Assembly: GCA_004298675.1 (NCBI GenBank)
Contig: SCRI01000012.1
Coordinates: forward strand, 1 to 16,108
Direction: 5' to 3'
Origin: a bacterium
GTDB lineage: Bacteria; Vulcanimicrobiota; Vulcanimicrobiia; Vulcanimicrobiales; SCRA01
Length of the DNA: 16,108 nt
Made by a program: the position numbers and the translations under genes. This document shows positions 26 through 7,448 of this stretch, piece by piece (position 1 is the stretch's first letter; the number at the start of each line of letters is the position of its first letter). The notes under the pieces were generated by a model, which saw only the letters and a program-made list of their open reading frames with translations, made no database searches and was not told the origin of the DNA.

Positions 26-1120
26 CTACAGCCTCGGCGACGGCGCTGGGATTGCGCGCGTGGCGGCGTAGGACCCGCCATTCCAACTAGCCATCACGGT
101 CTGCTTCGCTCCCACGCCGCCGGTAACGACGATCAGAATATCATCCGCTGACTGCGCCGCGCGCAGGGGGGCGCGCAGCACCTCGCCGCGGGAGCGCCGC
201 CGCCGCAACACCTCTTCGCGCATGCTCGGCGAGAGCCGATCGAGCGGGCAGGCCGCGCGCTTGAAGAGACTTGCCTTGACGTCGCGCTTGCTCAACCCTT
301 CGCTGGCCAGGGCACGTGCCCACTCGGGTGAGATGAGCACGATCGGCTGTCCGCCGCCAACCAGTGGGTCGTCGGTCGGAGCGATCGCAAACGGTGCGGC
401 TAACGTCTCCGCCAGTGAGTGCAGGTAGTCACGCGAACTCTGCGCGTAACCGTTGACCACTTCGATGGTTCCCGAGATGGCGAAGACGGTGACCGCGCTT
501 TCCTCGCGCGCGAGCCCGCGCTCAGCATGGAGTGGCTCCCACGGACTCTCTTCTTCGTTCTCGGCGAAACAGCAGGTATATTTCGCCGGCTGGCCCATCG
601 TCGACATATCCGTGACGCCGGGCAGCGCTCCGGCCACGAAGCGCGTCAGCAACGCTAGCGCACGCCCCACGGCCGCGTTGGCGCGCGTGCCCGGGCCCAG
701 AAAGTTTGCCCCGGCGTTGAACCCGAGGCGTTTGCGCGCTGGGCCGCTGACGACTGTCACCAGCGCTGCCGAGCCCGTGGTGGTCAGCACGCCGCGCACG
801 TTGAGCGCCGGATCCGTTAGCGCAGCGGCGCAGGCACGCAGCACCGGCAGATGTTCCGGCATGCAACCGGCGACGAGCGCACAGAGCGCGAGCTCCTTTA
901 CGCTCGTTTCGCGGTCGCGCGGTGGAATGGCCGCGACGGCCTCGTCGCCAGCGAGGTCGTTGGCAGCGAGGATGGCGGCTAGTCCCTCAGGCGTCGGCCG
1001 GACCACCGGCAGCCCATCGTAGAGACCGGCGCTGCTCAGCTCCCGCAGCAACTGCGCCTCGTCCAGGGAAGCCCAGCGTGCGACGCTCTCGTCGATTTCT
1101 TGCGCCGCCAGCGACGTCAC
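26..1120 (-). CDS. UGSC-operon protein B (uncharacterised, paralogue of the preceding gene)
   Basis: Protein of 364 residues, function unknown. The GTG start at 1118-1120 overlaps the TGA stop of the upstream gene (GTGA), which implies translational coupling. A longer open frame continues upstream to 1438, but that part is out-of-frame shadow of the neighbouring gene. Visible motifs are DGLPVVRPT (about residues 35-43), AGCMPEH (84-90), FLGPG (140-144), QPAKY (177-181) and ENEEESPW (187-194), followed by AVTVF and a C-terminal DDILIVVTGGVG (about 326-337). The same motifs occur in the same order in the gene just upstream, so the two are tandem paralogues. The invariant Cys and His of AGCxPxH may matter for redox or metal chemistry; this is inference. 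It carries no signal peptide and is probably cytoplasmic. It is the last gene of the selenoprotein operon seen here; what follows lies outside the window. Confidence 0.85.
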   Translation of the reverse strand: MTSLAAQEIDESVARWASLDEAQLLRELSSAGLYDGLPVVRPTPEGLAAILAANDLAGDEAVAAIPPRDRETSVKELALCALVAGCMPEHLPVLRACAAALTDPALNVRGVLTTTGSAALVTVVSGPARKRLGFNAGANFLGPGTRANAAVGRALALLTRFVAGALPGVTDMSTMGQPAKYTCCFAENEEESPWEPLHAERGLAREESAVTVFAISGTIEVVNGYAQSSRDYLHSLAETLAAPFAIAPTDDPLVGGGQPIVLISPEWARALASEGLSKRDVKASLFKRAACPLDRLSPSMREEVLRRRRSRGEVLRAPLRAAQSADDILIVVTGGVGAKQTVMASWNGGSYAATRAIPAPSPRL

Positions 1121-2181
1121 GCGTTCTGCGGCTCGATGCCGACGGTCACGAAGTGGGAGGCACCGAAGCCGGGAATGACGGACGAGTGCTTTCCCGCGCC
1201 GCCCGCCACGAGGATGACGATGGAATCGGCATCTCGCACGCAGGGGAAGGTCGCCTCGTCGTCGTCCGCTTGCGCGTTCATCCAGGCAGGCCAATCGCGC
1301 ATCCCCCACATGCCACCCTTGCGCAGGTCCCGAACGGGACGCACGGCATGCTGAAAGAGGTAGCGCTGTACATCGGCTCGCGTCCAGCCGTCGGCAGCGA
1401 TGAGCGCCGCATGTTCGGGCGAGAAGACGACGGCGCAATCATTGCGCCCGGACTGCGTGAGGTACCAGGTGTTATGCCCCAGGCCGCGCATCACGTCGGC
1501 AACGATCTCGAGCAGGCGGGTCGGCGAGTTGCTCTCGTGGTCGTTGATGTTGTGCGTCGCCTCGCCGCCGAAAACCGTCACCGCGTTCTCGTTCGCGTCG
1601 AAGCCACGGCTGGCGTGGAACTCGGGCCACGGGCTTTCGGCGACGTTTTCGGTGATGGCGTAGGCGTACTTGGCAGGACTGCCTTGTGTGGCGCGGTCGC
1701 GTTCGCCGGGATAGGCGCCGCCGACGTTCATGAGAATCAAACGGATTGCACGGCCGATCGCCGAGTTGGCCAAATAGCCCGGACCGAAGACGCCGGCGCC
1801 GCCGTTCATCCCGATCTCGCGCGCGATAGGGCCGTGCACCACGACCAACGGCGCCACGGGATGTGTCGTCGCCTGCACGCCGTAGAGATTGAACGCTGGC
1901 TCTAGCAGCGCGCGCACCGCGGCGACTACCACCGCAAAATGAAGCGGCCGGCAGCCCGCCATCACGGCGTTGGCCGCGAGCTTTTCAAGCGTGGCGTCGT
2001 TGGCCGCCGGGAGCATCGTTCCCAGCGAGCGCTCACCCGGCGCACCGATGGCGGCAAGCATTGCGGTGACGCGCTCCTCGGTGGGCGGCACGATCGGCAG
2101 ACCGTCGGTCAAGCCGTGTTCCTCGAACCACGCCTGCACGCTGTCGAAGTCGCCGGTTAGCTCGTATCGATCAGCTAACAT
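1117..2181 (-). CDS. UGSC-operon protein A (uncharacterised, DGLPIVPPT family)
   Basis: Protein of 354 residues, function unknown. The ATG at 2179-2181 lies inside the last codons of the selenoprotein gene (11-bp overlap), so translation is probably coupled. Motifs: DGLPIVPPT (26-34), VMAGCRPLH (73-81), NGGAGVFGPG (126-135), GSPAKYAY (167-174), ENVAESPW (178-185), AVTVFGG (200-206) and a C-terminal GGAGKHSSVIPGFG (327-340). This set is shared with the following gene, and from recall of the family such proteins are repeatedly encoded next to UGSC selenoproteins. The conserved AGCxPxH Cys could be a partner of the selenol in the upstream product; this is inference only. No signal peptide or membrane segment is visible, so the protein is likely cytoplasmic. 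I am confident it is a gene and not confident of any reaction. Confidence 0.88.
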   Translation of the reverse strand: MLADRYELTGDFDSVQAWFEEHGLTDGLPIVPPTEERVTAMLAAIGAPGERSLGTMLPAANDATLEKLAANAVMAGCRPLHFAVVVAAVRALLEPAFNLYGVQATTHPVAPLVVVHGPIAREIGMNGGAGVFGPGYLANSAIGRAIRLILMNVGGAYPGERDRATQGSPAKYAYAITENVAESPWPEFHASRGFDANENAVTVFGGEATHNINDHESNSPTRLLEIVADVMRGLGHNTWYLTQSGRNDCAVVFSPEHAALIAADGWTRADVQRYLFQHAVRPVRDLRKGGMWGMRDWPAWMNAQADDDEATFPCVRDADSIVILVAGGAGKHSSVIPGFGASHFVTVGIEPQNA

Positions 2182-2785
2182 CGGCCGGCACCTCCAGCCA
2201 TGCGTTCAGACTTTTCCACGCCGCCTCGATACGTACGGAGAGGTCCTCCTCGGTGATTCCACCCAATGGGTGCGGGATCGGCGCGATGGGGAGCGGTGTG
2301 CTGGTAAGCGCCTCGAATTGCAGCTTTGCCAGGGGCAGAAATGAAGCCGTGCAGATGGTCAACGTACGTAGGCCGTGCTGCTCGAGCTCAACGGAGTCGT
2401 GGACACTCCACGACGTGCAGGACCCTCAGTCACCTGTTCCGTTGATGACTCGTCCGCATTCGAGTGCGATGCGCTCGATGAGATCCTCACTTGCGCCCAG
2501 CGCCGCGCTCTCCTTCTCGTAGAAGCGGACATTGAATCCGCGCTCCTCGAGACGCTTGCCGAGCACACCCTGCAGCATGCCGGTGTTGGGCTTGCGGTTC
2601 GACAGAAAGCCGATGGCCTTTGCCGTGCCGTGGTGAGGCGTTCGCTCGCCGATGGCGAGACGGGATACGGAAGAGCCCACGGGGTTGACGAGACGCCAAA
2701 CGCCTACGTCCACTGTCTCATCCTCGCTTTCCCGCCGCTCGTGTCGTTGCCACGCCGGCGCCATGTGCGCATGCGTCATCCGCAT
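2171..2785 (-). CDS. UGSC family selenoprotein (in-frame TGA = selenocysteine)
   Basis: The frame reads through TGA at 2426-2428 and gives 204 residues, ending at TGA 2171-2173. Flanking residues read GTGD-U120-G-S-C-TSWSVHDSVELEQHG. This is the defining signature of the UGSC selenoprotein family, in which the residue before GSC is selenocysteine or a substitute. Upstream similarity is also in frame: LVNPVG (32-37), then FLSNRKPNTGMLQ (60-72). U120 and C123 form a UxxC redox pair; the physiological substrate is unknown. Start choice: ATG 2783-2785 lies about 36 nt after the expected transcript start but lacks a clear ribosome site. A GTG at 2711-2713, preceded by GAGGA, would give a protein starting at Val25 and is a fair alternative. 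It is the first gene of a three-gene coupled operon. An ordinary gene caller would split it into two hypothetical ORFs. Confidence 0.88.
2396..2414 (-). promoter_or_regulatory. Bacterial SECIS-like hairpin for UGA recoding
   Basis: In the mRNA sense (minus strand), an 11-nt gap after the UGA is followed by GTCGTGGA-GTG-TCCACGAC. This is a perfect 8-bp stem with a GTG triloop, or a 7-bp stem with loop AGTGT. The apical loop begins 18-19 nt after the UGA and has G in its first two positions, which matches the known geometry of bacterial SECIS elements recognised by SelB. The stem sits inside the coding sequence (residues about 124-130). Confidence 0.8.
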
Positions 2786-2827: not shown

Positions 2828-2857
2828 ATTATATGAGCACGCGCGTTAGCTTGTCAA
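2828..2857 (-). promoter_or_regulatory. Consensus sigma70 promoter of the selenoprotein operon
   Basis: On the minus strand, TTGACA (2852-2857) and TATAAT (2828-2833) are both perfect hexamers, separated by 18 bp. Transcription would start near 2821, giving a leader of about 36 nt before the ATG at 2785. An 8-bp palindrome TCATATGA (2859-2866) lies immediately upstream of the -35 and could bind a regulator. Confidence 0.8.
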
Positions 2858-2875
2858 TTCATATGATCAATATTG

Positions 2876-2889
2876 TTCTCTAGAGAGAA
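2876..2889. promoter_or_regulatory. 14-bp perfect palindrome in the divergent promoter region (candidate operator)
   Basis: TTCTCTAGAGAGAA is a perfect palindrome located between the leftward selenoprotein promoter and the putative rightward promoter of the importer operon. The position fits a shared operator for the divergent operons. No regulator gene is adjacent, so the binding protein is unknown. Confidence 0.45.
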
Positions 2890-2896
2890 TCAACAG

Positions 2897-2926
2897 TTGT
2901 CGAAAATGGCGGCTACCTGCTACGAT
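2897..2926 (+). promoter_or_regulatory. Candidate promoter of the ABC importer operon
   Basis: TTGTCG (2897-2902), an 18-bp spacer and TACGAT (2921-2926) are preceded by TGC, which gives an extended -10 appearance. A start near 2933 would leave a short leader before the ribosome site GGAGGG (2947-2952). The match is weaker than the opposing promoter, so this is a tentative call. Confidence 0.4.
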
Positions 2927-2956
2927 GAAAGCGGGTGTGCGGCCGCGGAGGGAATC

Positions 2957-4168
2957 ATGAAACGTCAGAAGACCGCCATCATGACGCTTCTCTTGGGGTT
3001 ACTCGTCTGCGCTAGCCTCGTCTTCGGTGCCGTTACGCGCGCTTCGGCACAGGGTACCGCGCCGGGAGTCAGCGGCAAGGAAGTCACGCTTGGCGCGTGG
3101 ACGCCTGAGTCCGGGCTTGCGACGGTCCTGCTCTCCATCAGTCAAGGCGCCGACGCTTACTTTCGTTGGTCCAACGACCACGGTGGCATCAACGGCTATC
3201 ACTTCAAATTCGTGTTGGCCAACGACCAGTACAATCCGGCCTTGACGCCGGCGGCAGCACGCCGCCTCGTGGAGGTCGACAAAGCCTTCGCCATCGTCAC
3301 GGCGGTAGGGACGCCATCGAACGTGGCCGCGCTTTCGTATATCTCACGCGTGGGTATCCCCAACGTCGGCCCGCTCACGGGCGATCCGGCGCTGACGCAT
3401 CCGGTGCGCAAGAATATCTTCACCGTCATGCCGGACTACACGACCGAAGGTGCCTTCCAGGCGCAGTTTGCGCTCGATAATCTGCACTCGAAGTCGCTGG
3501 CGGTGATCTATCAGAACGACGCCCTCGGAAAGAGCGGGGTCGACGGCGTCGTGAAGCTGCTCGCGCAACGCGGCCTCAAAGCCGCGACCACCGTGCCCTA
3601 CGATTTGGGCACCGTGAACTTCACGCCGATGATCGCTCGCTTGAAAGCCAGCGGCGCCGACACCGTGATCGTCTGGGGCTCGGTGCCGCCGTTCGTGCCG
3701 ATTCTCAAAGGGGCGCAGGCGCTCGGTTACCAACCGAAGTGGCTAGCGTACCTCTTCGACGCGGCGCCCGCCGTGCTCGACCAGATTCCGCCTGCGCAAG
3801 TGAGCAACGCGTACTTCGATTCGTGGGTACCGCTCCCCAGCGATGCAGCGATGGCCGCCTATCGCGAGGCGATGGCGAAGTACTACCCGCAGGTCACCAG
3901 CAGCAGCTTCCTGCCGGCCACGGGTTGGGCTTTGGCCTCCGTCTTCTCCTCGGGCTTTTCGCGGATGGTGGCCGGTGGCGCGGAGCCCAGCTGGAGCGGA
4001 CTGGAGGGAGCACTCGAAGGGATGCACGATTTCTCCAACGCGTACGTGCACGGGCTGACGTTCGCGCCGGACAATCACCAGGGTGAGCCCGCGGAGTACG
4101 TGATGAAGTACGAGAGCGGCAAGTTCGTCAAGGTCGCTCCGTATATGCCGTTGCCGGCCATTCACTAG
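2957..4168 (+). CDS. Branched-chain amino-acid type ABC transporter substrate-binding protein
   Basis: Protein of 403 residues. Start chosen at ATG 2957 because GGAGGG (2947-2952) lies 4 nt upstream and because the protein then opens with a signal peptide: MKRQK, a hydrophobic stretch to about residue 25, and a likely cleavage after ASA (29-31). The open frame runs further upstream to 2873 without support. There is no proper lipobox (LLVC), so the protein is probably periplasmic or secreted rather than a lipoprotein. The mature part follows the type I periplasmic binding fold (Peripla_BP_6/LivK): VTLGAWTPESG at the start, then a DGGING-like DHGGINGYHFKF, AIVTAVGTPSNVAA, IPNVGPLTGDP and DTVIVWGSVPP. 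The first gene of a five-gene importer operon. The real ligand may not be Leu/Ile/Val, since this family also binds amides, urea and aromatic acids. Confidence 0.92.
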   Translation: MKRQKTAIMTLLLGLLVCASLVFGAVTRASAQGTAPGVSGKEVTLGAWTPESGLATVLLSISQGADAYFRWSNDHGGINGYHFKFVLANDQYNPALTPAAARRLVEVDKAFAIVTAVGTPSNVAALSYISRVGIPNVGPLTGDPALTHPVRKNIFTVMPDYTTEGAFQAQFALDNLHSKSLAVIYQNDALGKSGVDGVVKLLAQRGLKAATTVPYDLGTVNFTPMIARLKASGADTVIVWGSVPPFVPILKGAQALGYQPKWLAYLFDAAPAVLDQIPPAQVSNAYFDSWVPLPSDAAMAAYREAMAKYYPQVTSSSFLPATGWALASVFSSGFSRMVAGGAEPSWSGLEGALEGMHDFSNAYVHGLTFAPDNHQGEPAEYVMKYESGKFVKVAPYMPLPAIH

Positions 4169-4176
4169 CAGCGCCA

Positions 4177-5052
4177 GTGCTGGCGACGCTGGTCGTAGCT
4201 GGGCTCGTCACCGGCGCAATTTACGCCCTGGTCGGGCTCGGCCTGGTGATCATCTATCGCACCTCCCAAGTCGTGAACTTTGCTCAGGGCGACGTTTCCA
4301 CGCTGCTAACCTTCGTGGGCTTCACGTTGATGACGCAATGGGGGATGCCGTACTTGGCCGCCTTTGCGCTCACACTCGTGGGTGCGTTCCTGTTCGGCGC
4401 GCTCGTGGAGCGCACGGTGATTCGCCCCGTGGCCTCACGTAGCCCGATCGTGGCGGTGGGGGTGACGCTAGGCGTGGCGCTGATCCTCAACGGCGCCAGC
4501 AGTTGGCGCTGGGGGACGCAGGTGCAGAGCTTCCCCGCACCTACCACCGCTACTGGCATCACCGTCGGCGGGATGACGGTCTCGGGTGCGAGCCTGGTGA
4601 TCCTGGGGGTAACGGCTCTCTCTGTGGCGCTGCTGGTGGTGTTATATCGCTACACGCGCATCGGGATCTCGATGCGGGCCACGAGCGAGGACTCCCCTGC
4701 GGCCGAACTCATGGGCATCGACGTGCGTGCCATGGCCGCACTGAGCTGGGGGATGGCCGCGGTCCTGGGTGCTACGGCGGGCATGTTGGTTTCACCGGCG
4801 ATTACGTTGACGCCCAATCAGTTGGACCTGGTGGTGATTCGCTCGTTCGCGGCGGTCGTGGTGGGTGGCTTCACCAGCACCGTGGGCGCAGTCGTTGGCG
4901 GGCTCTTCATCGGTGTGGTGGAGAGCGTGGTGGCGGGATACGCGCCCGCCGATCTGACGAACATCGCGATGTTCGCGATCGTGCTGATCGTGCTGGTCTT
5001 CCGGCCGCAGGGACTGTTGGCCGGCGAAGAGACCCGCAAGAGTCTGGTATGA
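4177..5052 (+). CDS. livH: Branched-chain amino-acid type ABC transporter permease (LivH-like)
   Basis: Protein of 291 residues with a GTG start 8 bp after the binding-protein stop; no strong ribosome site is visible. Its N-terminus reads GLVTGAIYALVGLGLVIIY followed by VNFAQGD, the classic LivH opening (YAL..GL..IY and NFAQG). Several hydrophobic membrane segments follow, and the tail LVFRPQGLLAG is also typical. The cytoplasmic EAA-type loop that contacts the ATPases falls around GISMRATSEDSPAAELMGID (about residues 163-182). It would pair with the next gene's product to form the inner-membrane channel. Its stop overlaps the next start (ATGA), so translation is coupled. The gene symbol is by family, and the substrate is not proven. 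Confidence 0.92.
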   Translation: MLATLVVAGLVTGAIYALVGLGLVIIYRTSQVVNFAQGDVSTLLTFVGFTLMTQWGMPYLAAFALTLVGAFLFGALVERTVIRPVASRSPIVAVGVTLGVALILNGASSWRWGTQVQSFPAPTTATGITVGGMTVSGASLVILGVTALSVALLVVLYRYTRIGISMRATSEDSPAAELMGIDVRAMAALSWGMAAVLGATAGMLVSPAITLTPNQLDLVVIRSFAAVVVGGFTSTVGAVVGGLFIGVVESVVAGYAPADLTNIAMFAIVLIVLVFRPQGLLAGEETRKSLV

Positions 5053-5993
5053 GCGCGCGGCGCGGCTGGAGTGCGGTTGCGATCGCCGCGGTCTTGGCGT
5101 TCCCCTGGGCGGCGGGGTCGTATGTCGATTACGTGGCGTGCTTGGCGCTGGCCTACAGCTTGGTGACCCTTTCACTGAACTGGGTGATGGGCTATGCGGG
5201 CCAGATCACGCTGGGGCAGGGCGGCTTCTTCGCCGTCGGGGCCTACTTCACGGCTTGCGCAGTGGTGCATGCGGGCTGGCCGCTGCCGGCGGCGATTCTG
5301 CTGAGTGCGGTTGCCACCGGCATGCTCGGTCTGCTGCTAGGGGTGCCGGCGCTGCGCCTGCAAGGGCACTACCTCGCGCTCGCAACGCTGTTCTTCAGCC
5401 TCGCAGTGCCCGAGGCGATCATGGCGCTCCCGTTGCTGACCGGCGGAGCCAACGGCATCAATGTGCCGCCGTCGGTGACGTTCTTCGGGCTGCATCTCTC
5501 GAATCTGCACGACGCGTACTACGTGTTGATCGTGCTGGTAGCGTTGGTTGTGGTGGCGGACCGCACGATGTTGCGCAGCAAGCTGGGGCGCGCGTTTTTG
5601 GCGATCCGCGATAGCGAAACGGCGGCTGCCTCTGTGGGTATCCCGATCGCGGTCTACAAGGTCACGGCGTTTACCGCGTCAGGCGTGATCGCGGGTCTGG
5701 CGGGCGGATTCTACGGCGCAATCGCGGGCTACCTCAACCCGAGCATGTTCGACCTCTGGCTCTCGATCTATTTCTTTGCTGCGCTGATTGTCGGCGGCTT
5801 GGGAAACGCCTACGGTGCCGTGATCGGCGGAATCTTGGTGGTGGCGCTGCCGCAACTGTTCAGCCAAGCGCAGAACCTGGCCAACATCCTGTATGGTGCG
5901 ATTTTAGTGGTCGTGCTGCTGGCGTTGCCCGGCGGGATCGCGGATTGGCCACGCCTGAGCCGCGCGGTGAGGTGGCTATGGCATCCGCGCTAA
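5049..5993 (+). CDS. livM: Branched-chain amino-acid type ABC transporter permease (LivM-like)
   Basis: Protein of 314 residues starting at ATG 5049, which overlaps the TGA of the LivH-like gene by 4 bp. The longer frame upstream (to 4503) overlaps that gene and is spurious. LivM hallmarks are YAGQITLGQGGFFAVGAY (about residues 51-68), the loop LGRAFLAIRDSETAAASVGI with the EAA-like ATPase contact, and a final membrane pair ending in IVGGLGNAYGAVIGG. It is the second channel subunit of the importer. Its 3' end overlaps the following ATPase gene by 16 bp. Confidence 0.92.
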   Translation: MSARRGWSAVAIAAVLAFPWAAGSYVDYVACLALAYSLVTLSLNWVMGYAGQITLGQGGFFAVGAYFTACAVVHAGWPLPAAILLSAVATGMLGLLLGVPALRLQGHYLALATLFFSLAVPEAIMALPLLTGGANGINVPPSVTFFGLHLSNLHDAYYVLIVLVALVVVADRTMLRSKLGRAFLAIRDSETAAASVGIPIAVYKVTAFTASGVIAGLAGGFYGAIAGYLNPSMFDLWLSIYFFAALIVGGLGNAYGAVIGGILVVALPQLFSQAQNLANILYGAILVVVLLALPGGIADWPRLSRAVRWLWHPR

Positions 5994-6736
5994 GCGTCGC
6001 TGATCTGACCGTGCGTTTCGGGGGACTTACCGCCGTCTCGGGCGTGAACCTGGCGGTCGAGAACCACGGAAGGCTTGGCATCATCGGCCCCAACGGCGCG
6101 GGCAAGAGCACGCTCTTCTACGCAATCACCGGGCGGGTGCGTCCGGCAGCCGGACGGCTGGTAGTCGACGAGCATGAGGTGACGCATTGGCCCACGTACC
6201 GGCGCGCAGCCAGTGGAATCGTCCAGACGTTTCAGAACATCCAACTCTTCGGATCGCTCTCGGTGTTGGAGAACGCGATGGTAGGCGGGCATCTGCGTGC
6301 GGCGTATCCGGCGGTGTTGGGGTTCTTCAGGTTGCCGCGCGTGCGGCGCGTGGAACGTACGCTCGCGGAGGAGGCACGTACGCTGCTGCGCCGTTTCGAG
6401 CTAGTGGGGGTAGAGGGGCGGCGGGTCTCGGAGTTGCCATATGCCATGCAGAAGCGTGTGGAGGTGGCGCGCGCGCTGATGGCGCGACCGCGCGTGCTGC
6501 TGTTGGACGAGCCGGCAACGGGGATGAATGACTACGAGAAGGGCTTCTTCGTCGAAGCGGTGCGGGAGATGCAGAGCGCCCTGGGCTTCGCGCTGGTGGT
6601 GATCGAGCACGACGTGGTATTCCTCGCGCGGTTGGTGGAGCGCATGGTGGCGATGAGTTTCGGCCAGATCATCGCGCAGGGGAACCCGGAGTCGGTGATG
6701 GCGACACCTGCGGTCGTCGAATCGTACACGGGATAG
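5978..6736 (+). CDS. livG: ABC transporter ATP-binding protein (LivG-like)
   Basis: Protein of 252 residues. ATG 5978 is chosen over an upstream TTG (5945) because GAGGTGG sits just before it and the family's opening (LSVADLTVRFGGLTAV) follows at once. Walker A GPNGAGKST (37-45), Q-loop VQTFQN (82-87), Walker B VLLLDEPA (173-180) with catalytic Glu178, and H-loop His211 are all present. The signature region reads LPYAMQKRVEVARAL. The usual glycine of LSGGQ or LPYGxQ is alanine here, a mild departure also plausible within the LivG group. It energises the LivHM-like channel together with the next gene's product. Confidence 0.92.
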   Translation: MASALSVADLTVRFGGLTAVSGVNLAVENHGRLGIIGPNGAGKSTLFYAITGRVRPAAGRLVVDEHEVTHWPTYRRAASGIVQTFQNIQLFGSLSVLENAMVGGHLRAAYPAVLGFFRLPRVRRVERTLAEEARTLLRRFELVGVEGRRVSELPYAMQKRVEVARALMARPRVLLLDEPATGMNDYEKGFFVEAVREMQSALGFALVVIEHDVVFLARLVERMVAMSFGQIIAQGNPESVMATPAVVESYTG

Positions 6737-6740
6737 CGAC

Positions 6741-7448
6741 GTGAAGCTGGAGATCGAAGATGCCCGGGTCTCGTACGGCGAGGTGGAGGCGTTGCGTGGG
6801 GTCTCGCTGACGGTGAACGCAGGCGAGATCGTGGCGGTACTGGGTGCAAATGGTGCGGGGAAGTCGACCTTGGCGCGGGCGATCTCGGGTCTGGTTGCGC
6901 GACGGGGGCGGATCCTGGCCGACGGCGAGGCGATCGAGCGGTTGCGGGCGCACCAGATCGTCCGGCGGGGAATCGTGCAGGTGCCCGAAGGGCGGCACGT
7001 CTTCCCCGGGCTCACGGTGCGAGAGAACTTGGTGCTGGGGCACCTGAGCAGTCGTGCGCCGTTTGCGGAGCGGCTAGCGGCGGTTTGCGAGATGTTTCCG
7101 CGATTGGCGGAGCGGATGGCGCAGCGTGCGGGGACGCTTTCGGGCGGCGAGCAGCAAATGCTGGCCTTAGGGCGAGCGCTGATGGCGCAGCCGCGGCTGC
7201 TGATTCTGGACGAGCCGTCGATGGGCTTGGCGCCGGCGCTGGTGAAGGCAACGTTTGCAGCGCTGCGAGCGATCAACGCGACGGGCGTGACGATCCTGCT
7301 GATCGAGCAGAACGTGAACCTGTCGTTGGAGGTGGCGCATCGGGCATACGTGCTGGTGCTGGGGCGAGTGGTGCACCAAGGTGCGGCGCAGGAGTTACGC
7401 GCGGACCAGGGTTTGCAGGCGCTCTATCTCGGCGGCTCCGCGCTTTAG
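6741..7448 (+). CDS. livF: ABC transporter ATP-binding protein (LivF-like)
   Basis: Protein of 235 residues, GTG start 4 bp after the LivG-like stop. Walker [10 protein letters not shown] (35-43), the LivF-specific VPEGRHVF (81-88), a canonical signature LSGGEQQ (133-139), Walker B LLILDEPS (153-160) and IEQNVNLSL (189-197) around the H-loop position are visible. In the LivF family the H-loop histidine is normally replaced by Gln in IEQN, as here. It completes the importer. The stop codon TAG (7446-7448) overlaps the stop of the convergent P-type ATPase gene, so no terminator can fit between the two genes. Confidence 0.92.

Follow-up and report, generated by a model that had tools for sequence, protein, structure and literature searches.

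The closest described systems are the glycine and proline reductases, in which a selenocysteine (Sec) subunit, GrdB or PrdB, works together with a pyruvoyl-carrying subunit to reductively remove the substrate amine (PMC13188914, PMC9908766). Cleavage of fluoroacetate has also been proposed for relatives of GrdB (PMC10838667). The UGSC-containing selenoproteins form a family in which most members carry Sec, specified by UGA, and in which Cys forms are rare (PMC2398784, PMC13188914). The 2008 description (PMC2398784) proposes a thioredoxin-like fold and gives no partner, operon or reaction for these proteins. It also notes a UGSC/'Unknown_1' fusion, which may be the fusion of UGSC to its partner that we find here. 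A 2026 review still counts the UGSC family as uncharacterized.

We analyzed a UGSC-family gene and its surroundings in a stretch of 16,108 nucleotides, referred to here as the window (Table 1). The sequence-only reading of this DNA had proposed that two minus-strand frames are a single UGSC-family gene split by an in-frame TGA. Translation of the minus strand from 2785 to 2171 gives one phase with a sole in-frame stop, the TGA at 2428-2426, which is preceded by NGTGD and followed by GSCTSWSVHD. The read-through protein matches the Pfam UGSC model PF24696 over residues 33-197, a span of 165 residues that crosses the TGA (8.1e-32, 111.1 bits against a cut-off of 25), and an orthologue in an independent genome of the same genus (L050), 70% identical, retains both halves and the TGA. 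Both the joining of the two frames and the family assignment are thus upheld. All 72 aligned homologues match PF24696 as well, and the window gene is a further member of a family that had been described by 2008. Its motif is U96 G97 S98 C99, with Sec at the UGSC column and G and C after it. Against the NCBIfam equivalog model for UGSC, NF041046, the protein scores 107.9 bits, under the cut-off of 125, so we regard it as a divergent subfamily member and do not claim the equivalog label. The expectation that a standard gene caller would miss the gene is therefore right only in part: the score does lie under that cut-off, but NCBI does have a model for the family. A search of the window against Rfam gave no match.

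Table 1. Features of the UGSC locus and its flanks, in window coordinates
Feature	Coordinates	Strand	Remarks
Partner B, paralogue of partner A (34% identical)	26..1120	-	GTG 1120 overlaps partner A stop by 4 nt
Partner A, 354 aa	1117..2181	-	11-nt overlap with UGSC gene; family without a Pfam model
UGSC-family selenoprotein gene	2171..2713	-	180 aa from the probable start; PF24696 111 bits, read-through translation, AlphaFold2 model
SECIS-like hairpin	2396..2414	-	stem GTCGTGGA/TCCACGAC, loop GTG; 8/8 pairs formed
Cys99 codon TGC, second residue of UxxC pair	2417..2419	-	present in 71/72 homologues
TGA codon for selenocysteine	2426..2428	-	Sec96 counted from GTG 2713, Sec120 from ATG 2785
Sigma-70-type promoter-like site, TTGACA-18-TATAAT (12/12)	2828..2857	-	upstream of selenoprotein gene; consensus match only
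Substrate-binding protein gene, branched-chain-amino-acid-type (Liv) ABC transporter	2873..4168	+	divergent; PF13458 5.1e-53
Permease and two ATPase genes, same Liv-type transporter	4177..7448	+	PF02653, PF00005

The true start of the UGSC gene is probably GTG 2713, although the open reading frame can be extended to ATG 2785. We prefer the GTG because family similarity begins only at residue 33 and a GAGG lies upstream of this codon. With this start the active site is numbered Sec96-x-x-Cys99. The residue numbers first given, Sec120 and Cys123, depend on the start codon and are the less likely ones, whereas the placement of Sec at the TGA is supported. The UGSC stop codon (2171-2173) falls inside the start of the partner A gene (ATG 2181-2179), which makes UGSC the first gene of an operon extending to position 26, and the gene is translationally coupled to partner A and its paralogue. 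The perfect match to a sigma-70-type promoter in front of the operon is unusual for this G+C-rich window, and a near-palindrome, TTCTCTCTAGAGAA, lies upstream. On the other strand, the gene for the Liv-type substrate-binding protein probably starts later than 2873. Judged only by its position, the Liv-type transporter may act in the same pathway as the UGSC operon.

Four independent lines of evidence bear out the reading of the TGA as Sec: the Sec machinery of the source genome, the composition of the family column, a SECIS-like hairpin and the co-distribution of selA with the Sec form of the protein. The source genome, with a size of 3.03 Mb and a completeness of 98.5%, contains selA, selB, selC and selD, the absence of which would have counted against Sec. 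selA and selB are adjacent on contig 71, and the tRNA-Sec is 11 kb from them (71.7 bits, gathering score 47; also called by ARAGORN as tRNA-SeC, anticodon tca). selD is on contig 43 and has an in-frame TGA of its own. The genome contains four UGSC genes, each with exactly one in-frame TGA. Homologues without Sec or Cys at the UGSC column would likewise have spoken against Sec, but each of the 72 aligned ones has either TGA or a codon for Cys there. Cys99 is kept in all but one of these, and a redox pairing of Sec96 with Cys99 is therefore plausible. The distribution of selA follows that of the TGA. Among 46 genomes bearing the module, 42 have UGSC genes with TGA and every one of them has a SelA match (39 strong and three weak, the latter in G159, G187 and G189). 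The four genomes without SelA are exactly the four with Cys-UGSC (L067, L079, L086 and L092), including the haloarchaeon Natronomonas gomsonensis (L079). This co-distribution gives a Fisher p of 6e-6, or 2e-4 if only strong SelA matches are counted.

A single in-frame stop is a minimal observation, and the sequence comes from a MAG, so the TGA at 2426-2428 could be considered a normal stop codon, an error of sequencing or a sign of gene decay. However, the same TGA occurs in the independent genome of the same genus and in dozens of other homologues. Together with the Sec machinery, the SECIS constraint and the selA co-distribution, this leads us to reject a pseudogene or plain stop and leaves a negligible chance for any reading of this kind. 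On the strength of these comparisons, we take it as almost certain that the window gene is a real Sec gene.

The SECIS-like hairpin lies directly downstream of the UGA. It begins 11 nt past the TGA, its stem is made of nucleotides 15-22 and 26-33, and the loop contains GU. Over 67 Sec genes, 90% of the pair cells are formed, compared to 62% expected from synonymous codon shuffling of the same proteins, and the fraction falls to 20-51% if the partner strand is displaced by 1-3 nt. Pair 21-27 is compensatory (GC in 47 genes and CG in 19), and fold stability stands out at this position only, with a mean z of -1.7 versus -0.5 to 0.4 at neighboring offsets. Folded alone, the hairpin of the window is no more stable than shuffles (z about 0). 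The case for the hairpin thus rests on the comparison across 67 homologues, in which it is conserved beyond what the protein sequence demands.

Two things escaped the sequence-only reading: the selenoprotein belongs to a conserved multi-gene module, and its domain has a relation to GrdB and PrdB. Each of the four UGSC genes of the source genome has a partner A homologue next to it, and in one case the two are fused. Of the 27 UGSC matches in 101 related genomes, 26 adjoin a partner gene; judged by its coordinates, the remaining match covers only half of a gene and lies on a fragmentary contig. The association was also found starting from the other side. A search of species genomes that used only the partner as query yielded 80 loci, and UGSC was present at 76 of these, always on the same strand and in 71 cases within 300 bp; at three of the four loci without UGSC, the partner is at a contig edge. 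UGSC and partner are a single open chain in 16 genes, and their numbers per genome correlate across 22 further genomes (Spearman 0.92). We consider it very likely that UGSC and the partner constitute a two-part module.

The partner is a widespread protein that has no name in any family database. None of 86 members matched Pfam at E 0.01, and the search against NCBIfam gave one marginal match (0.003), in one member. Partner A is modeled by AlphaFold2 with a pLDDT of 95.5, and comparison of the model with the PDB returned no convincing relative (the top Foldseek match had E 1.1e-3 and a TM under 0.3, and the highest Z was 6.3). Since the structure search gave no clear fold, we claim none for the partner. 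Searches of the sequences of solved structures, with UGSC and with the partner, found nothing credible. We also compared UGSC and the partner with each other and found them unrelated, and rejected the partner as a GrdE homologue (0.15% in profile comparison).

Because the UGSC motif is reminiscent of GrdB and PrdB, we tested the relation by profile comparison. Eight GrdB genes were chosen by their N-terminal PF07355 match only, and each has an in-frame TGA followed by GT[CSG]. In hhalign, UGSC aligned with the C-terminal domain of GrdB at 95.4% (E 2e-8) over 97 columns, in which the two Sec positions coincide. Against a combined profile of GrdB and PrdB-like proteins it reached 96.5% (7e-10). 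The match to PrdB-like proteins is firm only with more sequences, at 47% with eight and 95.7% with 27. That set was picked by a motif pattern partly shared with UGSC, whereas the GrdB-only set is free of that pattern. Unrelated families from the gene neighborhoods, compared with the same profiles as controls, reached 27% or less, the top one being a short-chain dehydrogenase family. PF07355 matched neither the window protein (E 0.001) nor any of the 72 homologues (E 0.01), and for this reason we do not file the UGSC protein as a member of the GrdB/PrdB family (PF07355). Instead, these profiles suggest that the Sec domain of UGSC is likely a distant relative of the Sec domain of GrdB and PrdB. 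The source genome also has a PrdB-like selenoprotein gene on contig 18 (L166:1237-1887; LLTGG-U-PLC), and in relatives (L169) the ORF immediately downstream is peroxiredoxin-like and contains Sec.

The AlphaFold2 model of UGSC (mean pLDDT 91.3) has five strands alternating with helices, and Sec96 lies between strand 88-94 and helix 97-112, at the N-terminus of the helix. The model is similar to flavodoxin, PurE and receiver-like proteins (many ties at a Z of about 10), and no thioredoxin is among the structural matches listed. It makes the published thioredoxin-like fold less likely and points to a flavodoxin-like one. This prediction bears on whether UGSC could be a general thiol-disulfide oxidoreductase or peroxidase of thioredoxin-like fold, with the partner as its dedicated client. 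Such a role would suit the UxxC motif, the fold guessed in 2008 and the fact that many selenoproteins are redox proteins. We find it quite improbable given the predicted fold, a profile comparison that favors GrdB/PrdB, and the presence of up to dozens of paralogues in a single genome, each with its own partner, which fit substrate-specific enzymes better than a general reductant.

We lean toward the view that UGSC is the catalytic Sec subunit of a two-part, GrdB/PrdB-like selenoreductase that acts in small-molecule catabolism. The UGA at 2426-2428 would be read as Sec with the aid of the hairpin directly downstream. The UGSC subunit, with its predicted flavodoxin-like fold, would supply the selenolate of Sec96 and the resolving Cys99, and partner A (and paralogue B) would be the larger and probably substrate-binding subunit. 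After import of a small substrate, the selenolate would attack one of its carbons, in activated form, and expel a leaving group, Cys99 would resolve the seleno-intermediate as an Se-S bridge, and a thioredoxin-type donor would reduce this bridge. We infer complex formation, the reductive-cleavage chemistry, the substrate and the electron donor, and by analogy with the known reductases we give the mechanism as proposed an even chance.

Two other divisions of labor were weighed. It could be that the partner is the enzyme proper and that UGSC has the role of GrdA toward GrdB, handing over no more than electrons or an intermediate bound to selenium. Of the two proteins, the partner is the larger, and it is highly conserved, with many invariant polar residues (D26, R144, E178 and W185; Cys77 is present in 81 of 86 members), while UGSC is small and its UxxC is exposed. 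We nevertheless think this arrangement unlikely, because the Sec domain, in a comparison that covered GrdB and PrdB-like proteins, aligns with GrdB, a substrate-handling selenoprotein and not an electron carrier, and because the occurrence of at least one partner per UGSC and the direct fusion of the two suggest a fixed active-site composition. Alternatively, the reaction could be non-reductive, such as hydrolysis or acyl transfer, with Sec acting as nucleophile or binding a metal, and the partner could be a distant relative of cyclic amide hydrolases or class I fumarases. The partner model has weak Foldseek matches to both (E 0.01 and E 1.1e-3, respectively), and amidohydrolase and LamB/YcsF genes are found in the neighborhood. 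However, the matches have TM values of 0.15-0.28 and a best Z of about 6, below the level that is meaningful for the tool, and conservation of the second residue of the UxxC pair points to redox cycling, all of which makes a non-reductive reaction decidedly unlikely.

The genes near the modules encode transporters (Liv, TctC and DctP), CoA-transferase III, acyl-CoA dehydrogenase, amidohydrolase and SDR proteins. This neighborhood fits small-molecule catabolism, although such genes are common in these lineages. A CoA-transferase family III gene of the source genome (L026:5581-6732) lies directly before a partner-UGSC pair, and the same family recurs near 15 of the 80 partner loci. The fused copy (L027) is followed by genes for a thioredoxin-reductase-like flavoprotein (2967-3899) and a LamB/YcsF protein (3886-4668). 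The flavoprotein is a possible electron source, and LamB/YcsF is possibly a hint of lactam chemistry.

Copy number differs widely between genomes. A Chloroflexi MAG of 5.0 Mb (G153, JACPQD01; L058) has at least 96 UGSC and at least 92 partner matches, and nearly all UGSC genes among the matches listed have an in-frame TGA. Tandem pairs occur on single contigs of this genome (L203-L208), with 19 U-containing copies in 69 kb, though in a MAG some of these may reflect strain mixing. The largest published bacterial selenoproteome comprises 63 genes (PMC13188914). One UGSC paralogue beside a partner gene (L206:7001-7498) reads GWSGVYT and no longer has the U/C motif, so the expansion includes copies that are degenerate or repurposed. 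Two further loci titled 'Bordetella parapertussis' (L064 and L118) come from MAGs, and the titles look like mislabeled betaproteobacterial bins.

We speculate, more tentatively than for the enzyme itself, that UGSC and its partner represent a separate class of selenium-dependent reductases, in which the Sec domain of GrdB/PrdB is combined with a different substrate subunit that replaces the pyruvoyl protein. This class would be widespread in uncultured Rokubacteria, Chloroflexi, Beta- and other Proteobacteria and Actinobacteria, and each of the roughly one hundred paralogues in the one Chloroflexi genome would handle a different small-molecule substrate. If true, uncultured bacteria would carry out many selenium-dependent catabolic reactions that have so far stayed hidden. 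The obligate partner and the link to GrdB/PrdB turn an 'unknown redox protein' into a concrete and testable two-subunit enzyme hypothesis, and a partner family without a Pfam model gains a context. The relation to the Sec subunit of glycine and proline reductases also suggests what the long-unexplained UGSC family may do. Neither the constant partner nor this relation was found in papers that mention UGSC (subscription journals and supplements were outside the search), and this setting looks like the new part of the finding.

Known systems resemble the module in different respects. The monofluoroacetate dehalogenase operon of Cloacibacillus (PMC10838667) also contains a transporter and is a case in which GrdB-type proteins were recruited to a substrate that is not an amino acid. 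However, it combines GrdB relatives with a radical SAM protein, and no UGSC or partner is described in it. PrdB of D-proline reductase and the PrdB-like proteins are, like UGSC, small Sec proteins; their motif is of the UPxC/UxxC type, and their Sec domain is related to that of UGSC. In contrast to UGSC, PrdB pairs with the pyruvoyl protein PrdA, and PrdB-like genes are separate from UGSC genes within the same genomes. GrdB, the selenoprotein of component B of glycine, sarcosine and betaine reductase, has UGTC or UGTS where UGSC has its name-giving motif, and both proteins are encoded with a larger partner gene, which for GrdB is GrdE. UGSC lacks the N-terminal part modeled by PF07355, and it keeps the second Cys that is lost (UGTS) in several of the GrdB copies examined. 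Its partner is unrelated to GrdE, the pyruvoyl subunit, and GrdB chemistry therefore cannot be transferred unchanged to UGSC. With the known UGSC selenoproteins (PF24696, NF041046), the window protein shares the domain, the UxxC site and Sec encoded by UGA. It differs from them in scoring below the equivalog cut-off, and in the two features found for it here, its constant partner and its relation to GrdB/PrdB.
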